In this document: piece after piece, positions 15,970 through 57,585 of the stretch
Layout of the letters: each line of letters opens with the position of its first letter
Numbering within the stretch: position 1 is the first letter of the stretch
Assembly: GCF_020010925.1 (NCBI RefSeq)
Contig: NZ_JAGJBZ010000001.1
Location: forward strand, 1-64,000
Direction of reading: 5' to 3'
Origin: Streptomyces griseiscabiei
GTDB taxonomy: Bacteria; Actinomycetota; Actinomycetes; Streptomycetales; Streptomycetaceae
DNA length: 64,000 nucleotides
Made by a program: the position numbers and the translations under genes
Notes under the pieces: generated by a model
The model's database searches: none
What the model was told of the DNA's origin: nothing
The model's input: only the letters and a program-made list of their open reading frames with translations

Positions 15970-16189
15970 CCGTTGTCAACCGCGATCCGGTCCGCTCCTG
16001 GCGCTGACGGCGGGTCGGCCACTGCGCGACCCGGGAGCGTGTCCCGTGGGGTAGCCGACGCACGCCCTACCGGAACGTGTCGAGCAGGGTCGCTCCCCCC
16101 GCGAAGCGGGACACGACCTGGCACCTCGGCACATTCCTGTGCGTCGGTCGCCTGCTGCCGCCCGTCCCCGGTCTGCTGTGCCGCGGCTA

Positions 16190-17343
16190 GTGTCCTGCGC
16201 CAGTAGTTGATCGTTAGTAGTTCTGTGACTTCTGCTGCTGGTGCGTCAGTTCCTCGTCGGGGCCCGAAGCTGGAGCCGTTGCTGCTGTCTGCTGAGGAGC
16301 GGGCGGAGTTGGAGCGGTGGACGCGTCGGGCGACATCGGCCCAGGCTTTGGCCTTGCGGGCGCGGATCGTGTTGGCCTGTGCGGGGCCGGACGTACCGCC
16401 GATCGTCGCGGTCGCCCGGGATCTTCAGGTGACTGCGGACACCGTCCGCAAGTGGCGGCGGCGCTTCCTGGCCGAGCGGCTGGACGGGCTGGCCGACGAG
16501 CCGAGGCCCGGCCGGCCACCCACGATCAGCGTCGACCAGGTGGAGGCGGTGGTGGTCACCACGCTGGAACAGCTGCCGAAGAACACCACCCACTGGTCGC
16601 GGAAGTCGATGGCCGAGCACAGTGGCCTGTCGAAGTCGACCGTCGGCCGGATCTGGCGGCAGTTCCAGCTCAAGCCGCATCTGGCCGACACCTTCAAGCT
16701 GTCGACCGACCCGTTGTTCGTGGAGAAGGTCTACGACGTGGTCGGTCTGTACTTCAACCCGCCCGAGGGGGCGGTGGTGCTGTCGGTGGACGAGAAGTCG
16801 CAGATCCAGGCCCTGGACCGGTCCCAGCCGGTGCTGCCGATAATGCCGGGCATGCCCGAGCGGCGCACCCATGACTACGTCCGCAACGGCCTGACCACCT
16901 TGTTCGCTGCCTTCGACGTCGCCACGGGCGAGGTCATCACCGCCCTGCACCGCCGGCACCGGGCGGTGGAGTTCAAGAAGTTCCTGATCCGAATCGACAA
17001 GACGGTGCCTGCCCACCTGCAGGTCCATTTGATCGTGGACAACTACGGCACCCACAAGACACCCGCGATCAAGACCTGGCTCGCCAAACACCCCAGGTTT
17101 GAACTGCACTTCACCCCGACCGGCAGCTCGTGGATCAACCAGGTCGAGCGGTGGTTCGGCTACCTGGCCCACCAGATGATCCGCCGCGGCGCACACAAGA
17201 CCATCCATGCCCTGGAAGCCGACATCCGGGCCTGGGTCAAAGACTGGAACGAAAACCCCAAGCCGTTCATCTGGACCAAGACCGCCGAAGAGATCCTCGA
17301 CTCCCTCGCCCGCCTCTGCCGACGAATCTCTGGCGCAGGACAC
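16190..17343 (+). mobile_element. IS630-family insertion sequence (complete)
   Basis: Perfect terminal inverted repeats GTGTCCTGCGCCAG (16190-16203) and CTGGCGCAGGACAC (17330-17343), flanked by a TA target duplication at 16188-16189 and 17344-17345, as expected for the IS630/Tc1 superfamily. It carries one transposase gene. It inserted into the 3' part of an amidohydrolase gene read on the minus strand. Removing the element with one TA restores an open reading frame across the site. Confidence 0.93.
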
Positions 17344-17346
17344 TAG
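16207..17346 (+). CDS. IS630-family transposase
   Basis: About 373-379 residues. The N-terminal third is a helix-turn-helix region (VARDLQVTADTVRKWRRRF, LSKSTVGRIWRQF). The DDE catalytic residues are visible in LSVDEKSQIQ, VDNYGTHK and SSWINQVERWF. The start is TTG 16207 or, as likely, GTG 16225; neither has a clear ribosome binding site. The stop codon TAG (17344-17346) lies outside the inverted repeat and uses the TA target duplication plus the next base. It is uninterrupted and may be active. Confidence 0.9.
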   Translation: MIVSSSVTSAAGASVPRRGPKLEPLLLSAEERAELERWTRRATSAQALALRARIVLACAGPDVPPIVAVARDLQVTADTVRKWRRRFLAERLDGLADEPRPGRPPTISVDQVEAVVVTTLEQLPKNTTHWSRKSMAEHSGLSKSTVGRIWRQFQLKPHLADTFKLSTDPLFVEKVYDVVGLYFNPPEGAVVLSVDEKSQIQALDRSQPVLPIMPGMPERRTHDYVRNGLTTLFAAFDVATGEVITALHRRHRAVEFKKFLIRIDKTVPAHLQVHLIVDNYGTHKTPAIKTWLAKHPRFELHFTPTGSSWINQVERWFGYLAHQMIRRGAHKTIHALEADIRAWVKDWNENPKPFIWTKTAEEILDSLARLCRRISGAGH

Positions 17347-39793: not shown

Positions 39794-40684
39794 GAGGAGC
39801 TAACAGAAAGCGTTGATGGGGCCATGTCCCGTTCTGCGTTGTCTCGTTAAACGGGCCATGGGGAAGTCGAAGGGCCCGCCGTGGCTGGTGGCGGACGACT
39901 TGTGGGTGCGGGTCGAACCACTGCTGCCGGTGCGGTCCCGGCGGGCACGGAATCCGGGCCGGCTGCCGCTGGATGACCGCCTGTGCCTGCAAGGGATCTT
40001 GTTCGTGCTGCATACGGGTATCCAGTGGGAGTGGCTGCCGCAGGAACTCGGGTACGGCTCCGGGATGACGTGCTGGCGTCGGCTGCGGGACTGGAACAAG
40101 GCCGGAGTGTGGGGCCGGCTGCACCAGGTGCTGCTGACCGAACTGCACCAGGCCGGGAACCTGGACTGGTCCCGGGCGGTGATCGACGGCTCGCACCACC
40201 AAGCACGTCGGGGCGGCCCAAAACCGGGCCGAGCCCGGTCGACCGCGCCAGACCGGGCTCGAAACACCACGTGATCACCGACGCGAACGGCACCCCGCTG
40301 GCCATCACCCTCACCGGCGGCAACCGGCACGACGTCACCCAGCTGCTGCCCCTGCTCGACGCGATACCTCACATCCAGGGCCGCAAGGGCAGGCCCCGCC
40401 ATCGGCCCCGGGAACTGTTCGCCGACCGCGGCTACGACTACGACAAGTACCGCCGCCTGCTGCGGAAACGCGGCATCAAGCCAGTCATCGCCCGCCGCGG
40501 CACACCGCACGGCTCCGGACTCGGCACCGTCCGCTGGGTGGTAGAGCGCACGAACGCCTGGATCCACGGCTTCCGCCGACTACGCATCCGCTGGGAACGA
40601 CGCGACGACATCCACGAAGCCCTCCTCAAGCTGGCCTGCTGCATCATCACCTACCGCCGCGTCAAAGCTTTCTGTTAGCTCTTC
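39794..40684 (+). mobile_element. IS5-family insertion sequence (complete)
   Basis: Inverted repeats GAGGAGCTAACAGAAAGC (from 39794) and, reversed, GAAGAGCTAACAGAAAGC (ending 40684) differ at one base. A TAA target duplication flanks it (39791-39793 and 40685-40687). At 891 bases with two overlapping frames it fits the IS427-like group of IS5. It sits between the amidase and the GH42-like gene and disrupts no recognisable gene. Confidence 0.93.
39858..40678 (+). CDS. IS5-family transposase made by -1 frameshifting
   Basis: The first frame (ATG 39858, stop 40274) encodes the N-terminal part with LDDRLCLQGILFVLHTGIQWEWLP and the first catalytic Asp in VIDGSHHQA. The second frame, ending 40678, encodes KHHVITDANGTPLAITLTGGN, ADRGYDYDKYR (second Asp) and VVERTNAWIHGFRRLRIRWER (Glu). 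The overlap contains CCCAAAA at 40217-40223, in phase C CCA AAA, a canonical X XXY YYZ slip site giving the fused DDE protein of about 273 residues. The frame arrangement is seen; actual frameshifting is inferred from the family. Confidence 0.88.
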
Positions 40685-46114: not shown

Positions 46115-46320
46115 GTCCCGACTTGGAAGCAGAACCGGGTGAGCCGGTCGGCGACCGGAGACCTGGGATCTGCGATCTCCGGGAGGTCGTGACCGCGATC
46201 TTCTGCCAGAACCGGACGGGCGGTCAGTGGCGCCACCCGCCCCACGACCTGCCGTCCCGGTCGGTGGTGGTCCACTGCTTTCGGCATCCGCCCCAAAGGC
46301 GCCGTGAAGTACGCGGACAC
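46115..46320 (+). pseudogene. IS5-family transposase fragment
   Basis: Plus frame reads LREVVTAIFCQNRTGGQWRH, PPHDLPSRSVVVHCF, matching the REVVNAIFYxxRTGCQWRxLPHDLPPxxxVYxxF block of IS5-type transposases. No start, no catalytic residues, and the reading breaks after RHPPQR. A relic. Confidence 0.6.
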
Positions 46321-49003: not shown

Positions 49004-50032
49004 ATGGCGGAAGCGATCCACGGCATCTCCACGGGTGCGGTGGCGCGGCGCCTCGGGGTCTCGCCCACCACCGTGCGTTCGTGGGAGCAGCGCTACGGCA
49101 TCGGTCCCGCGGCCCGGGACGGCGGGCGGCACCGGCGCTGGACGCCCGGGGACGTCGCCTTGCTGGAAGAGATGTGCCGTCTCACCTCGATCGGAGTCCC
49201 TCCGGCCGAGGCGGCCCGCGCGGCCCGGACCACCCACGGTGGCGGTGAGGCCGCGGTCACCGAGGCTCAGTCCGCCCCGCCGACGGACCAGACGGAACCG
49301 CGACCGCCGACGCCTCAGCCACCGCCCCCAGGACGTCGGCCGGGCCACGGCACCGGGTTGCCTCTCGGCGACGTACGGCAAGAGGGCCGTGGTCTGGCTC
49401 GCGCGGCCGTGCGGCTCGACGGTCCGGCGATGCAGGCCCTGCTGGAGCAGGCCATCACGGAGTACGGACTCGTAGCCGCGTGGGAGGAGGTGATGGCTCC
49501 CACGCTGCACGCCGTGGGTCGCAAGTGGGCCTCCTCGGACGACCGTTACATCGAGGTCGAGCACCTGCTGTCGTGGCATGTGTCGACCGCGCTGCGGCGC
49601 GTCGTCGTCGGCGCGCCGGCCCCGTCCGGCGCGCCGACCCCGGTGGTGCTGGCCTGTGTGCCGACAGAGTTCCACACCCTGCCGCTGGAGGCCCTTGCCG
49701 CCGGTCTGGCCGAACGGGGACTGCCGACCCGCATGTTCGGCGGCGCGGTTCCTGCCGAAGCACTGGACTCAGCCGTCCGCCGCACCGGCCCGGGCGTGGT
49801 CGTGCTGTGGGCGCAGGCGCGCCCGACCGCCTCGCACGCGCTCGCCAGGCACGTGGCCGATACGACGTTCGGGGTGCGAGGTGCCCGAGCGACACCACTC
49901 GTCGTGCTCGCGGGGCCCGGGTGGGCGGGACACAGCCTCGGCTCCGGATTCCTGCGGCCGAGCAGTCTGCGCGAGGCCCTCCACATGATCTGCCGGACGT
50001 ACGGAGCACTGCCGGACCGGTCCGTCGGGTGA
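49004..50032 (+). CDS. litR: LitR/CarH-like MerR regulator with B12-binding domain
   Basis: A 342-residue regulator. The N-terminal MerR HTH is ISTGAVARRLGVSPTTVRSWEQRYGIGP with RRWTPGDVALLEEM. A Pro/Gly-rich linker (about 80-125) leads to the B12-binding fold: four-helix part with WASSDDRYIEVEH (the Trp and Glu-His that cap adenosylcobalamin in CarH) and the Rossmann part with TEFHTLPLEALAAGLAERG, whose His is the expected lower cobalt ligand. Such proteins repress in the dark and release DNA on light. GTAAGGTGGA precedes the ATG. It sits before a photolyase relic and an ECF-sigma/lipid-modification operon, typical targets of LitR. Confidence 0.85.
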   Translation: MAEAIHGISTGAVARRLGVSPTTVRSWEQRYGIGPAARDGGRHRRWTPGDVALLEEMCRLTSIGVPPAEAARAARTTHGGGEAAVTEAQSAPPTDQTEPRPPTPQPPPPGRRPGHGTGLPLGDVRQEGRGLARAAVRLDGPAMQALLEQAITEYGLVAAWEEVMAPTLHAVGRKWASSDDRYIEVEHLLSWHVSTALRRVVVGAPAPSGAPTPVVLACVPTEFHTLPLEALAAGLAERGLPTRMFGGAVPAEALDSAVRRTGPGVVVLWAQARPTASHALARHVADTTFGVRGARATPLVVLAGPGWAGHSLGSGFLRPSSLREALHMICRTYGALPDRSVG

Positions 50033-50059
50033 CGGTTCCCCACCGAGTTCGGCCCGCCC

Positions 50060-50456
50060 CCGCCGACGCCCTCGCTCGGACCTCCGCACGGTAGTCGTCC
50101 GCAGCCCGGCCGGTCGGGGGGACCTCCACGGTTCATCGACGTCGGGCCGTCCCAGCGCTGCGAGCCCCGGAACCTACCGGCGCACACGGCTGCCGTCGGG
50201 GTCGTACTGTGGTGCCTGCCGGACCGGGGCGAGGACCCGGTCGGCCGTGTGCCGACGTTCGTCCCCGCCACCCGTCGCCGGTTGAGCTGACTCTTCACGA
50301 CGTCTCCATCTGCGTCGACCGGCGGGCTCAGGAAGCGGTGGGCGCCCTCGCGCCAGTCGATGTACAGCCTCCCGGTCAGGTGGGAAGCGGCGATCAGACG
50401 GCCGCAGTTGTGTGCCCAGCCCTCGTGGACCGGCCGGCGCCCGCGCCCCGTCAGGG
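50060..50456 (-). pseudogene. DNA photolyase C-terminal relic
   Basis: Minus frames read VHEGWAHNCGRLIAASHLTG, RLYIDWREGAHRFL, VAGTNVGTRP and, after a shift, RVLAPVRQAPQYDPDGSRVRR. These match the photolyase/cryptochrome FAD-binding blocks TGWMHNRxRMxxASFLT, LxxDWRxGExxFxxxLxDxD, NxxWQWxAGTGTD and NPxxQxxxxDPxGxYVRRW in order. The upstream part is missing beyond the IS630 element at 50461, and the remaining part has changed NQLNWQW and HNRxRM residues, a deletion and a stop. Non-functional. Confidence 0.72.
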
Positions 50457-50457
50457 G

Positions 50458-51542
50458 TTACTGACCTTGCTGGCGTGATGTCGTCAAGGTGAGGCCGGTT
50501 TCAGTGAGACATCCGTCGACGAGGTTGCTGCGGTACTGGATCTGGCGGAGGCCCTGGCGAAGGGTGCGCATCAGATGGTCGGGGTCGGTGAAGGCGGTGT
50601 TGGCCTGGCTGCTGCGTCGCAGCAGTGACCAGATGCCCTCGACGGGGTTGAGGTCCGGTGCATAGGCGGGCAGGAAGTAGCAGGTGATCCAGTCGTGGGT
50701 GTCGATGAACTCCCGCAGCCGGCGGTCCTTGTGCACGTTCAAGTTGTCCCAGACGAGCACGATCGGCGCGCCGAGCTGTTGGTGGGCGGCGGTCAGCAGG
50801 TCGCGGTAGTCGGTCCAGGTGAAGCTGCGTCTGCCGCCCCGCTTGTGGTCGGCGTGCCGCTTGGGCCGGTAGATCAGCCGTGAGCGCTCGCCCTCCTTGT
50901 AGCAGGTCAGAGCGGCGATGGAGAAGCGGCGCTGGGAGCGTCCCCGCACCCGGATGACGGGTGTGTGTCCGCGCCTGGCCCAGGTGCGGGCAGTGGGCGG
51001 CGTCATCGAGAACCCGGCCTCGTCTTCGAAGCAGAGCCAGGCCCCGAGCGCCGCCATAGCGTTTCCACCTGCGGCCAGGTCTCCTTCACCCAGCCGGTGA
51101 CGGCTTCCTCGTCACGCTCGGTCGCGCGGCGGGCCGGCACCTGGTGGCTGAAGCCGTGCCGGTGCAGCATCTGCGCGATGGCCGACAGCGTCATGCTCTT
51201 GTGGAACCGGCGTCCGATCAGCGTCTTGATCCGCGAGAGCGTCCAGGTCTGGTCCGGCCAGCCGTGTGCGACCGGCCCCTTGGCCAGCTCCTGCTCGAGC
51301 ACCTCAAACAACGCCTCGCTCAGCTTGGGCCTGGACGCCGGCCCCGCCGACTCCAGCGCTGACGTCCCGCCGTGCTCCCATGCCTGGCGCCATCGTTGTA
51401 CCGACCGCACGCTGACACGTAACTCCTTGGCGACCGCGGCATTGTCGCGTCCCAGAGCGAATAACTCGGCCGCCCGCATCCGGATGCGCTCACGAAAGAC
51501 CCGCCGCTCCGCGGTCAGCCCGCCCCCTTGCGGATACCTCAT
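50458..51542 (-). CDS. IS630-family transposase in two frames
   Basis: The first frame (from 51542, stop 51003) carries the HTH part: LFALGRDNAAVAKELRVSVR, GGTSALESAGPASRPKLSE, WTLSRIKTLIGRRFHKSMTL. The second (to 50458) carries the DDE core: LCFEDEAGFSMTPP, VLVWDNLNVHKDRRL, YFLPAYAPDLNPVEGIWSLL. The frames overlap near the ATG at 51057 with a -1 relation; no canonical slippery heptamer is obvious, so it may be a mutation. The stop TAA (50458-50460) uses the TA target duplication. Confidence 0.8.
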
Positions 51543-54747: not shown

Positions 54748-55538
54748 AGCATGCCTTCCCTGGTGGGTGGAGCGGGTCGGGGTCGGACAGGAAGTCCCTT
54801 GAGGTACAGCCGGATGCCGTGCCAGCGGATGGCGGCGCTGACGGCCGCGGTGGACCAGGGGCAGCGGACCGCGGCGGCGAGCAGACCGCGCGTGTCGGCG
54901 GGACGGTGGCGGCCTCGGACAGTGGCGGTGAGGGGCCGGGACGCGTCCGGCAGACGCAGTTGGACAGTGAGGTCGAGATGCTCGCCGGGGAGAGGGAGCC
55001 GCATCCGGTAGGAGCCTTCGACGTCGAAGAACGGCGAGACGTAGAAGTCCTTGGCGACATCGACGCGGCCGTCCCCGTCGGGCCGCAGAAGGTAGCAGTG
55101 CCGACCGCCGTAGGTGTTGTGCACCTCGGCGACGACGCAGACGAGGCGGCCGGACCGGTCGTGGCACCAGTACAACGTGAGCGGGTTGAAGACGTGGCCG
55201 AGGACCCGGGCGTGGGCGAGCATCAGGACATGGCCGTCGGCGTTCCTTACGCCTTGGGACGCCAGGTACGCGTCGAGACCGCCACGGATCGTGCGGGCCC
55301 GCCCGCCGAAGTGGTCACGGGCGTCGAAACGGGCGAGCGGACGCAGGAGGCGGGACTGTTCGGGCAGGTCGTCGAGGTCGACGAGCCAGAGGTACGTGCG
55401 TCGGCGCAGGGAGTGACGCACCGGCCGGACCCGGGTGTGGGCGACCTCGCAGGTGTACAGCGCGGGCACCTGGACGCGCATCCGTACCGGTTCGGGTCCG
55501 GGTGCCGCGGAATCGGCGGGTGCGGCCTCGAAGCTCAC
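54744..55538 (-). CDS. DUF1365 protein
   Basis: A 264-residue protein. PALYTCEVAHTRVRPVRHSL, YLWLVDLDDLP, GHVLMLAHARVLGHVFNPLTLYWCHD, VVAEVHNTYGGRHCYLL and KDFYVSPFFDVEGSYRMRL are the conserved DUF1365 blocks in order. The family is almost always found between an FAD-dependent amine-oxidase-like protein and a CFA synthase-like methyltransferase, as here, and is thought to take part in modifying membrane acyl chains; its chemistry is not established. GTG 55538 overlaps the upstream stop as GTGA; GTG 55541 is an alternative. Confidence 0.9.
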   Translation of the reverse strand: MSFEAAPADSAAPGPEPVRMRVQVPALYTCEVAHTRVRPVRHSLRRRTYLWLVDLDDLPEQSRLLRPLARFDARDHFGGRARTIRGGLDAYLASQGVRNADGHVLMLAHARVLGHVFNPLTLYWCHDRSGRLVCVVAEVHNTYGGRHCYLLRPDGDGRVDVAKDFYVSPFFDVEGSYRMRLPLPGEHLDLTVQLRLPDASRPLTATVRGRHRPADTRGLLAAAVRCPWSTAAVSAAIRWHGIRLYLKGLPVRPRPAPPTREGML

Positions 55539-56794
55539 CACGTCACCCCCAGAGCACGGGCCGCATCGGCTCCCGAACGGCAGCCGTCCTCGTGGAAGCC
55601 CCAGCCGTGGTAGGCGCCGGCGAAGGCGGTGACGGATGTGGCGAGACCGGGGAGGTCCCGCTGTGCCGCGACGGAGCGGGGTGTGTAGACGGGGTGCTCG
55701 TACACCATGCGGGCGAGCACGGTGCTCTCGTCGACGCGGTCCTCGGGATTGAGGGTCACGATGTGCGGCTCGGTCAGCGCAAGGCGCTGCAGCCGGTTCA
55801 TGTCGTAGCTCACCCGCACGGAACCGGGGCGTGCCGTGCAGGACGGGAGCCAGTAGTTCCATGACGCGCGCGCGTGCGGTGATCGGGGAAGCACCCCGGT
55901 GTCCCGGTGCAGGACGGTGGGGTTGCGGGAATAGATGAACGCTCCCAGGACGCGGCGCTCGTCCGGCGTGGCGTCCACGAGCATCCGCAGGGCCTGGTCG
56001 GGATGGACGGCCACCACCACGGCGGCGTACCGCTCGGACTTCCCGTCCTCGGTGGTCACGCGTGCGTGATCGTGGCCACGCTCGATCGCCCGAACGGGCG
56101 TGGCGATCCGGACGGAGGCAAGGCCCTTGACCGCCTTCTCCACGTAGGCCGACGAACCTCCGGCGACGGTCTTCCACTGCGGCGATCCGGTGGTGGAGAG
56201 CAGCCCGTGGTGGTCGAGGAACCGGAAGAGGTAGGCGGCCGGGTACCGCAGGGAGGTGTCCGGCGCGCAGGACCAGACGGCGGAGACGAGCGGCAGTGCG
56301 AAGTGGCCGACGAAGTAGGGGGAGAAGCCGTTCCGGTCGTTCAGGAACGACCCAAAGGTCTGGGTGTCGTCTCCGGAGGCGAGCAGCCGACGGGCGGCTC
56401 GATGGAAGCGGGGCACGTCCGCGAGCATCCGTAGGTGCCGGCCACGCAGGACGTTGCCTCCGCCGAGCAGCCCGCGCGGGCCGCGCGCACCGGCGTATTC
56501 CAGACCGCATCCGTCGCATCGCACGGACATGCTCATCTCGGCGTCCTGGGTGACGACGCCGAGTTCGCGGAAGAGCCGCAGGAGGTGCGGGTAGGTGCGC
56601 TCGTTGTGGACGATGAAGCCGGTGTCCACGCGCACGGTGCCGCCCGCCCCGTTCGGAAGCTCATGTGTATGGGCGTGGCCGCCGGGCCGGGAGTCGGCCT
56701 CGTACAGGACCACGTCGTCACTGCGCGAAAGGATATGAGCGGCGGTCAGGCCCGCCACTCCGGACCCGACGACGGCGACGCTTCGCCGGTTCAC
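55535..56794 (-). CDS. FAD-dependent amine-oxidase-like oxidoreductase
   Basis: A 419-residue flavoprotein. AVVGSGVAGLTAAHILSRSDDVVLYEAD is the FAD-binding start, then RPGGHAHTHEL and VDTGFIVHNERTYPHLLRLF, typical of the group paired with DUF1365 and CFA synthase-like genes. GSPQWKTVAGGSSAYVEKAV and AFAGAYHGWGFHEDGCRSG complete the family pattern; the latter is the C-terminal FAD contact. In Rhodobacter a flavoprotein of this kind works with CFA-type enzymes on methylated fatty acids in the singlet-oxygen response; a similar role here is inference. GTG 56794 overlaps the sigma-factor stop. Confidence 0.9.
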   Translation of the reverse strand: MNRRSVAVVGSGVAGLTAAHILSRSDDVVLYEADSRPGGHAHTHELPNGAGGTVRVDTGFIVHNERTYPHLLRLFRELGVVTQDAEMSMSVRCDGCGLEYAGARGPRGLLGGGNVLRGRHLRMLADVPRFHRAARRLLASGDDTQTFGSFLNDRNGFSPYFVGHFALPLVSAVWSCAPDTSLRYPAAYLFRFLDHHGLLSTTGSPQWKTVAGGSSAYVEKAVKGLASVRIATPVRAIERGHDHARVTTEDGKSERYAAVVVAVHPDQALRMLVDATPDERRVLGAFIYSRNPTVLHRDTGVLPRSPHARASWNYWLPSCTARPGSVRVSYDMNRLQRLALTEPHIVTLNPEDRVDESTVLARMVYEHPVYTPRSVAAQRDLPGLATSVTAFAGAYHGWGFHEDGCRSGADAARALGVTW

Positions 56795-57585
56795 TTCGTT
56801 CCGCCTCGTGTCATCGGCTGCACGGGACGCCCGCTGTTGCGACGCGGGGCCGTCGCCGCCGCGGTCGGGCGCCTTCTCCTCGGAGCGGTGCCGGAGTTCG
56901 TCCGGGTGCCGCAGGAGGGCCGGGCGACCGCGTCGTCGGCTTCGGGGCAGGCAATCCGGGGCGGCGCGAGGTCGCCGCGCAGCCGCTGGAGCCCGCGCCT
57001 GACATGGATCTTGACGGTTCCGAGCGGCATGCAGGCCTTCCCGACGATCTCGGTCTGCTCCAGGTCACCGAAGAACGCCAGGCTGAGGACGTCCCGGTGC
57101 ACCCTTGACGGCCGGGCGGGCTCGCCCACGACGACGCGACCCACTCCGTGCCCGGTGCCGTCCACGGACACCACCTGCGGCGGCAGCACGGCACCGGCGG
57201 CGGTCAACTCGGTCGCGCGGCGACGCGCGGAAGGAGTGTCGGCGATCTTGCGTCGGGCGATGCCGACCAGCCGGGCGTGGACCGTCCCCCGGTCGGGGCG
57301 GTACCTCTGGTGACCGTGGCTAGGGCCCTGCTGATGGATCTCCGCGACGCCGCGGAGATGCATCAGCAGGGCCCTAGGGGCGAGACAGGCCCGCCGCGTC
57401 GCGCCCTCCGCCTCGCGGGAGTCCCCGATCGCCCGGCTCACCAGGGTGTGCACGAGCCGACCCCAGCGCTGGTGGGCCACTGCCAGGCGGTCCACGTCGC
57501 CGAGAGCGAGTCCGGCTCGGATCTCCTCGTCGGTCGGCTCGGAGCCCGGAGGCCGGACACTCCGGGCCATGGGCGCTGCGATCAT
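56791..57585 (-). CDS. ECF RNA polymerase sigma factor with palindromic insertion
   Basis: A 264-residue sigma factor. Region 2 has LALGDVDRLAVAHQRWGRLV, HTLVSRAIGDSREAEGAT and YRPDRGTVHARLVGIARRKIAD; region 4 has LSLAFFGDLEQTEIVGKACMPLGTVKIHVRRGLQRLRGDL. Within region 2, 18 extra residues (RALLMHLRGVAEIHQQGP) separate ATRRACLAP from SHGHQRYRPDRG; they are encoded by the 57320-57377 palindrome. Removing them restores normal spacing. A Pro/Arg-rich tail of about 50 residues follows region 4. Region 4 shows unusual substitutions, so activity is uncertain. GGAG precedes ATG 57585. It heads the lipid-modification operon and probably drives it. Confidence 0.82.
   Translation of the reverse strand: MIAAPMARSVRPPGSEPTDEEIRAGLALGDVDRLAVAHQRWGRLVHTLVSRAIGDSREAEGATRRACLAPRALLMHLRGVAEIHQQGPSHGHQRYRPDRGTVHARLVGIARRKIADTPSARRRATELTAAGAVLPPQVVSVDGTGHGVGRVVVGEPARPSRVHRDVLSLAFFGDLEQTEIVGKACMPLGTVKIHVRRGLQRLRGDLAPPRIACPEADDAVARPSCGTRTNSGTAPRRRRPTAAATAPRRNSGRPVQPMTRGGTK
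57320..57377. repeat. 58-bp near-perfect palindrome inserted in the sigma gene
   Basis: Left arm 57320-57347 starts CTAGGGCCCTGCTGATG and right arm 57350-57377 is its complement except at two of 28 positions; only two bases separate the arms. Both ends are CTAG, a possible target duplication; with one copy removed the net gain is 54 bp, exactly 18 codons, and the sigma-70 region 2 spacing becomes normal. It looks like a miniature inverted-repeat element. No second copy is seen in this window. Confidence 0.85.

Follow-up and report, generated by a model that had tools for sequence, protein, structure and literature searches.

The window, that is, the whole stretch of 64,000 nucleotides of the Streptomyces griseiscabiei genome that was analysed, carries on its minus strand an ECF-type sigma factor gene that contains a short palindrome. 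The original prediction of a 58-bp palindrome with CTAG at both ends inside such a gene is confirmed in the sequence, and the locus comprises the following features:

56791..57585, minus strand: ECF-type sigma factor gene in which the insert lies, 264 aa with the P0002 start (open reading frame, Pfam, NCBIfam and homologue searches)
57320..57377, no strand assigned: palindromic mini-element including the CTAG at both ends, 58 bp (sequence, arm search, short-form search)
57323..57374, no strand assigned: putative mobile part of 52 bp, assuming TA as the target duplication, for a net insertion of 54 bp or 18 codons (from YTAR flanks elsewhere and the 18-residue gap)
57321..57322, no strand assigned: TA, left copy of the putative target duplication (sequence and inference)
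57375..57376, no strand assigned: TA, right copy of the putative target duplication (sequence and inference)
57320..57346, plus strand: left arm or terminal inverted repeat (repeat finder)
57351..57377, minus strand: right arm or terminal inverted repeat (repeat finder)

At 56791-56794, the stop codon of the sigma gene overlaps with the GTG that starts the following open frame, so that the two genes remain adjoined despite the insert; this following frame (55535-56794) was judged by eye to encode an FAD-type oxidoreductase.

On the plus strand, positions 57320-57377 read CTAG-arm-loop-arm-CTAG. The arms are 27 nt each, 96% complementary and separated by a 4-nt loop according to the repeat finder, and 54 of the 58 positions are self-complementary; the near-perfect palindrome of the original prediction stands, with figures slightly different from the 26 of 28 matched arm positions given there. 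Folded as RNA, the 58-mer reaches -54.4 kcal/mol (z -10.8), a value equalled by none of 200 shuffles, and it is possible that the hairpin acts on the sigma message. Comparison with four sources rejected any known RNA family, every match lying far below the Rfam gathering scores. A search of the window with the arm pattern, allowing three mismatches, returns these two arms only (mean of 0 in 100 shuffles). The element consists of little beyond its two end repeats and encodes no transposase; one of three frames is open on each strand, and the sigma gene reads the open one.

The protein was analysed as P0001, a form of 259 aa starting at 57570, P0002 being the 264-aa form. Among 5.8 billion proteins, from which 7,996 candidates were scored, 168 homologues were found at E<=0.001, its own included; the closest other protein among the 120 matches listed is P0003 of Streptomyces brasiliscabiei (82% by BLASTP, 90% over aligned columns). 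In an alignment of P0001 with 14 homologues chosen by hand from the matches listed, all 14, P0003 included, show an 18-column gap at the insert, in agreement with the prediction that the element adds exactly 18 codons, for which homologues lacking that number of residues were named as support. Since none of the aligned relatives shares them, the insertion is recent and younger than the split from the S. brasiliscabiei lineage; the empty site is seen in the protein, as this gap, and a search for the uninterrupted S. brasiliscabiei gene as DNA did not find it. A search of the genus with the sigma gene gave matches at E<=0.001 in 125 of 150 genomes, its own included, several of them split near residues 64 and 85, which is where the insert lies. 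The open frame, and with it the translation of the palindrome whenever the gene is translated, would be expected were the 18 residues an ancestral part of the sigma factor, the outcome that would have spoken against an insertion; their absence from every aligned homologue leads us to reject this explanation as extremely unlikely, and the DNA moreover belongs to a dispersed repeat family.

Whether the host protein still works as a sigma factor is doubtful, because its region 2 is degenerate. In Pfam at E<=1, P0001 matches sigma-70 region 4 alone, just below the cut-off, and no region 2 is detected; the NCBIfam matches are of ECF type, all under their cut-offs. P0003, which has no insert, scores above the cut-off for region 4 and just below it for region 2. 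Both proteins have lost region 2 residues kept by the other 13 homologues (VF-AAW replaced by ARLAPR and ACLAPR), so the sigma gene may well have been diverging before the insertion took place. This decay, read from domain scores and lost residues, bears on the earlier suggestion that the element is tolerated as a protein insert: the frame is indeed open, but the suggestion is weakened by the failure of Pfam to see region 2 in P0001. Most likely, the insertion adds no function and instead damages still further a region 2 that was already diverging. The predicted structure draws the insert as a helix extension and is too weak for use (mean pLDDT 55.7, pTM 0.30).

The genome of S. griseiscabiei contains 17 places with the element or a single end, weaker matches uncounted: six copies of 168-169 bp, four of 199-200 bp, one of 122 bp, three of 55-59 bp (the window copy among them) and three single ends. 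The ten full forms (168-200 bp) bear CTAG at both ends in nine cases. Across the genus, the 169-bp form is matched at E<=0.001 in 257 of 392 genomes, its own included, a count for which two candidates were scored per genome and in which many matches span about bases 29-139 only. No match to this form was found in the phages searched. Short forms are rarer: a strict pattern finds five in 4 of 295 genomes, two of them in the S. griseiscabiei genome, and looser ones were also met during the partner searches described below. Counted from TA to TA with both included, these five measure 53, 56, 57, 57 and 64 bp, and their differing centres suggest, as far as sequence can tell, several independent internal deletions.

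Flanking DNA was compared for 31 elements in which both arms match a pattern and 650 bp of flank are available (single ends and the S. griseiscabiei copies L005, L016 and L021 being excluded). No two share flanks at E 1e-10, which means that they are dispersed at unrelated loci. The family is thus short, carries no transposase gene, has paired terminal inverted repeats and exists in many dispersed copies, as expected of MITEs. The predicted further copies with CTAG flanks were found both in this genome and in others and, together with the 18-residue gap, they back the core of the original prediction, namely that a miniature transposable element was inserted in frame. A strong hairpin of REP-like size could also have arisen on the spot with no transposon involved, as a palindrome of REP/RAYT type or as an ordinary terminator hairpin. 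This is very unlikely in view of the exact 54-bp gain and of the end repeats common to the 168-202-bp copies at unrelated loci (31 elements), and the window copy lies inside coding sequence. REP elements are linked to RAYT. They are described as short palindromes tagged with GTAG or CGTC at one end (PMC3733652); intact ends of the present family read YTAG on both sides, and membership of the REP/RAYT group was accordingly rejected.

The interior of the longer copies appears to have a history different from that of the arms, because a copy on a Streptomyces globosus plasmid (L099, 1979-2147) combines the same inner core as the 169-bp element with unrelated inverted arms that begin CTAGGGCCTGTATTGAG and again bear CTAG; from this copy, core and arms seem exchangeable. 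In the core, 6 of 42 predicted pairs show at least two Watson-Crick types and the covariation term is unfavourable, so that an RNA role for this segment is not supported. In Streptomyces violaceoruber NRRL S-981 (L177, 5520-5570), two arms form a direct tandem that looks like the insertion of one element at another's arm.

The flanks also inform on the target. Five of the 31 elements (L069, L072, L075, L181 and L163) have CTAA- or TTAA-type flanks, in a set chosen by a pattern that demands TA at both ends and therefore excludes copies with a lost TA. Such flanks argue that TA alone is repeated, not 4 bp, and that the target would be YTAR; they could alternatively be mutated CTAG.

An unexpected property of the family is its placement on stop codons. 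In the S. griseiscabiei genome, a coding-like frame ends exactly at the terminal CTAG in 11 of the 17 places by hand count, and ten such frames, chosen by hand at eight copies, all have Pfam matches at E<=1e-5; they include DisA, isocitrate lyase, a GNAT acetyltransferase, an S4-domain protein and one transposase-like gene. Both disA and a gene encoding IS481-type transposase domains take their stop codon from one 199-bp copy (L025, 1502-1700) situated between them. Over the loci examined, the terminal CTAG provides the TAG of a coding-like frame at 33 of 78 element ends with CTAG (2 of 156 in the other two frames), compared with 20 of 237 strand-sites for other CTAGs. Counted per element, 22 of 31 supply a neighbour's stop with at least one end (two with both), two, the window copy and L072, lie within coding DNA and seven lie elsewhere, as against 18 at a stop, 3 inside coding DNA and 76 elsewhere for 97 other CTAG sites (Fisher p 1.5e-7); these background sites come from the same loci, unmatched for position, and "coding-like" refers to a base-composition test. 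The window copy, within coding DNA rather than at a gene end, is an exception in its family. Ends of the related IS5-type elements fall on stops in 3 of 31 cases (0 of 62 in the other frames; Fisher p 0.0013 versus the MITE ends), and the enrichment is therefore not explained by the target alone. These insertion sequences are an imperfect control, because they possibly lie in other kinds of regions, and the strict coding test overlooked, in at least one case, a long frame that terminates at an IS end (L224). The genes flanking 30 elements, the window copy not included, are convergent in 10 cases, tandem in 19, divergent in none and unclear in one.

The two ends of an element also change together. 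The comparison covers 38 distinct copies with both ends recognisable (the left end of L090 being doubtful); the window copy and other short forms fall outside it since the script demanded an inner anchor. CTAG is present at 31 left and 25 right ends and at both in 23 copies, while TAG is missing at 6 left and 10 right ends. The outermost hexamer differs among copies (GGGCCC, GGGCGC, GGGGGC and others) and is the same at both ends in 28 of 38, with GGGCCC in 21 of those. Matches between the end hexamers amount to 218 of 228 positions, compared with a mean of 191 and a maximum of 205 in 20,000 shuffles, and to 161 for the 28 loci of the genus search (27 in other genomes, one in its own), compared with a shuffle mean of 138 and maximum of 152; the shuffle leaves kinship among copies in place. 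At the base before CTG, both window arms have G, and the 76 arms of the 38 copies have T in 75 cases and C in one.

Stop-codon supply in excess of both other CTAG sites and IS5-type ends, the arrangement of the flanking genes and the covarying outer hexamers would all suit a family that hosts keep as a portable 3'-end module, acting as a two-way transcription terminator or as a stabiliser of mRNA 3' ends, with the window copy as a stray insertion. We regard this as rather doubtful: purging of harmful insertions could leave behind the copies at stop codons, repair templated by the hairpin could equalise the arms and would account for the paired end changes without selection, and the insertion sequences have the shortcomings as a control noted above. 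Because YTAR is a pyrimidine followed by TAA or TAG on both strands, and ends that begin with G rebuild TAG, the element could invade gene ends without changing the protein. A MITE family that, throughout the genus, settles on stop codons and is kept by hosts in the form of portable, two-way 3'-end hairpins with co-evolving arms is thus a possible picture, which we put forward tentatively.

As to the mover, searches of seven genomes covered three transposase families. Among the DUF4096/IS5-type elements, several carry ends starting CTAGG. One of them (L211) has an end, TAGGGCGCTTCTTCTGGATC, that is near the MITE arm, its other end being unrecognised; its DNA relatives occur at E<=0.001 in 184 of 199 genomes, many of them partial. 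Eleven fetched loci related to it show both ends; these elements measure 895-906 bp, and CTAGGCCGTTTCTTTTGGATC exemplifies their ends. For three transposase pieces, which contain DUF4096 and DDE domains, the best match is NF033580, "IS5 family transposase", exceeding its cut-off in two cases. When 11 distinct, hand-picked ends of the 895-906-bp elements are compared with 25 distinct MITE arms, the best matches are 12-16 of 18 positions, ten of them at 13 or more, a likeness that is not wholly independent because L211 was followed for its MITE-like end. Six other IS5-type ends match at 8-10 of 18 in five cases and 15 of 18 in one, and 22,000 shuffles reach a mean of 6.7 and a maximum of 14. An IS630-type (Tc1/mariner-like) transposase is another candidate mover: flanks of CTAG or CTA type likewise occur on the IS630-type elements of these genomes, and a TA duplication is compatible with them. 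Their CTA-flanked ends differ in sequence, five of their end repeats matching the MITE arms at 6-9 of 18, the shuffle level, and an IS630-derived MITE was rejected as distinctly unlikely.

An autonomous partner with the full end was sought in 392 genomes with one pattern, which gave two matches only, one of them a short form, the other a single end or a short remnant. A second pattern, applied to genome contigs, returned 15 stretches made of full or short forms, tandem arms and single ends for which no partner could be recognised at the distance of an IS, and tblastn with the two ORFs of one element found no IS5-type transposase in them; both patterns omit elements that continue inward like the MITE.

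The window itself carries several insertion sequences. IS630-type elements lie at approximately 50003-51152, with near-perfect ends and a second copy of equal match scores in the genome at G000:C4:669140-669601 (L139, L144), and at approximately 16188-17346, with CTAGTGTCCTGCGCC ends (L158). An IS5-type (DUF4096) element with CTAACAGAAAGC ends lies at approximately 39800-40679 (L214), and a further IS5-type fragment at 46144-46284; several insertion sequences are gathered in this part of the window.

Taken with the dispersed copies, the short forms and the 18-residue gap, these end comparisons make the 58-bp palindrome very probably a MITE shortened by deletion, from a Streptomyces family whose ends are of IS5/IS427 type, the IS5-type partner being proposed from partial end similarity. 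In this scenario, an IS5-type transposase that acted on the end repeats would have carried the element into a CTAG within the sigma gene, leaving TA duplicated. With G as its first base and C as its last, the element would then show Y-TA-G on either side; this N-TA-G configuration would keep TAG at a stop codon and would be read through in the sigma frame (CCT AGN). The element adds its 18 codons in the single open frame and would place a very stable hairpin in the mRNA.

Comparable elements are known in other bacteria, and MITEs fused in frame to genes have already been described (PMC10969869, PMC2229807). Like the present family, RUP of pneumococcus is depicted as short and non-coding, with inverted repeats at its ends, a TA target and an IS transposase assumed to act in trans; however, it is tied to IS630-Spn1, whereas the Streptomyces family has IS5/IS427-like ends, enrichment at stop codons and short forms of 53-64 bp (PMC2229807). 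The Rickettsia palindromic elements likewise insert in frame into protein genes but, compared by description, are about 105-150 bp long and often found in genes, in contrast to the 18-codon insert reported here and to the 2 of 31 elements within coding DNA (PMC10969869, PMC2229807). The IS427 group of the IS5 family is described with mostly 2-bp target repeats and two overlapping ORFs (PMC3281130), and the 895-906-bp elements resemble it in having two ORFs and probably in these repeats, its members being given as 832-865 bp; unlike them, the window element has no transposase gene, and an autonomous partner with the same end was not found. For IS5 of Escherichia coli, CTAG/CTAA-type targets and a 4-bp repeat are reported (PMC11677980). 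A primer at pimT of Streptomyces natalensis contains an end of the element (PMC2698837). No earlier description of the family was met in the literature searched (Streptomyces MITEs and repeats, in-frame palindromes, IS5 stop-codon targets and the sequence itself), a body of work that comprises few subscription papers. In-frame insertion of a MITE is therefore a known kind of event; the placement on stop codons and the co-varying ends are the unusual part.

The family suggests how a target tetramer that holds a stop codon in both directions could render a mobile element nearly harmless, and it offers a testable case, in Streptomyces, of mobile hairpins turning into gene ends. Mobilisation can be tested as well, given the likeness to IS5-type ends. 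The window copy, for its part, illustrates an escape route inside a gene, where the reading frame survives and the copy is viable only because a single frame of the element is open and its net length of 54 bp is divisible by three.
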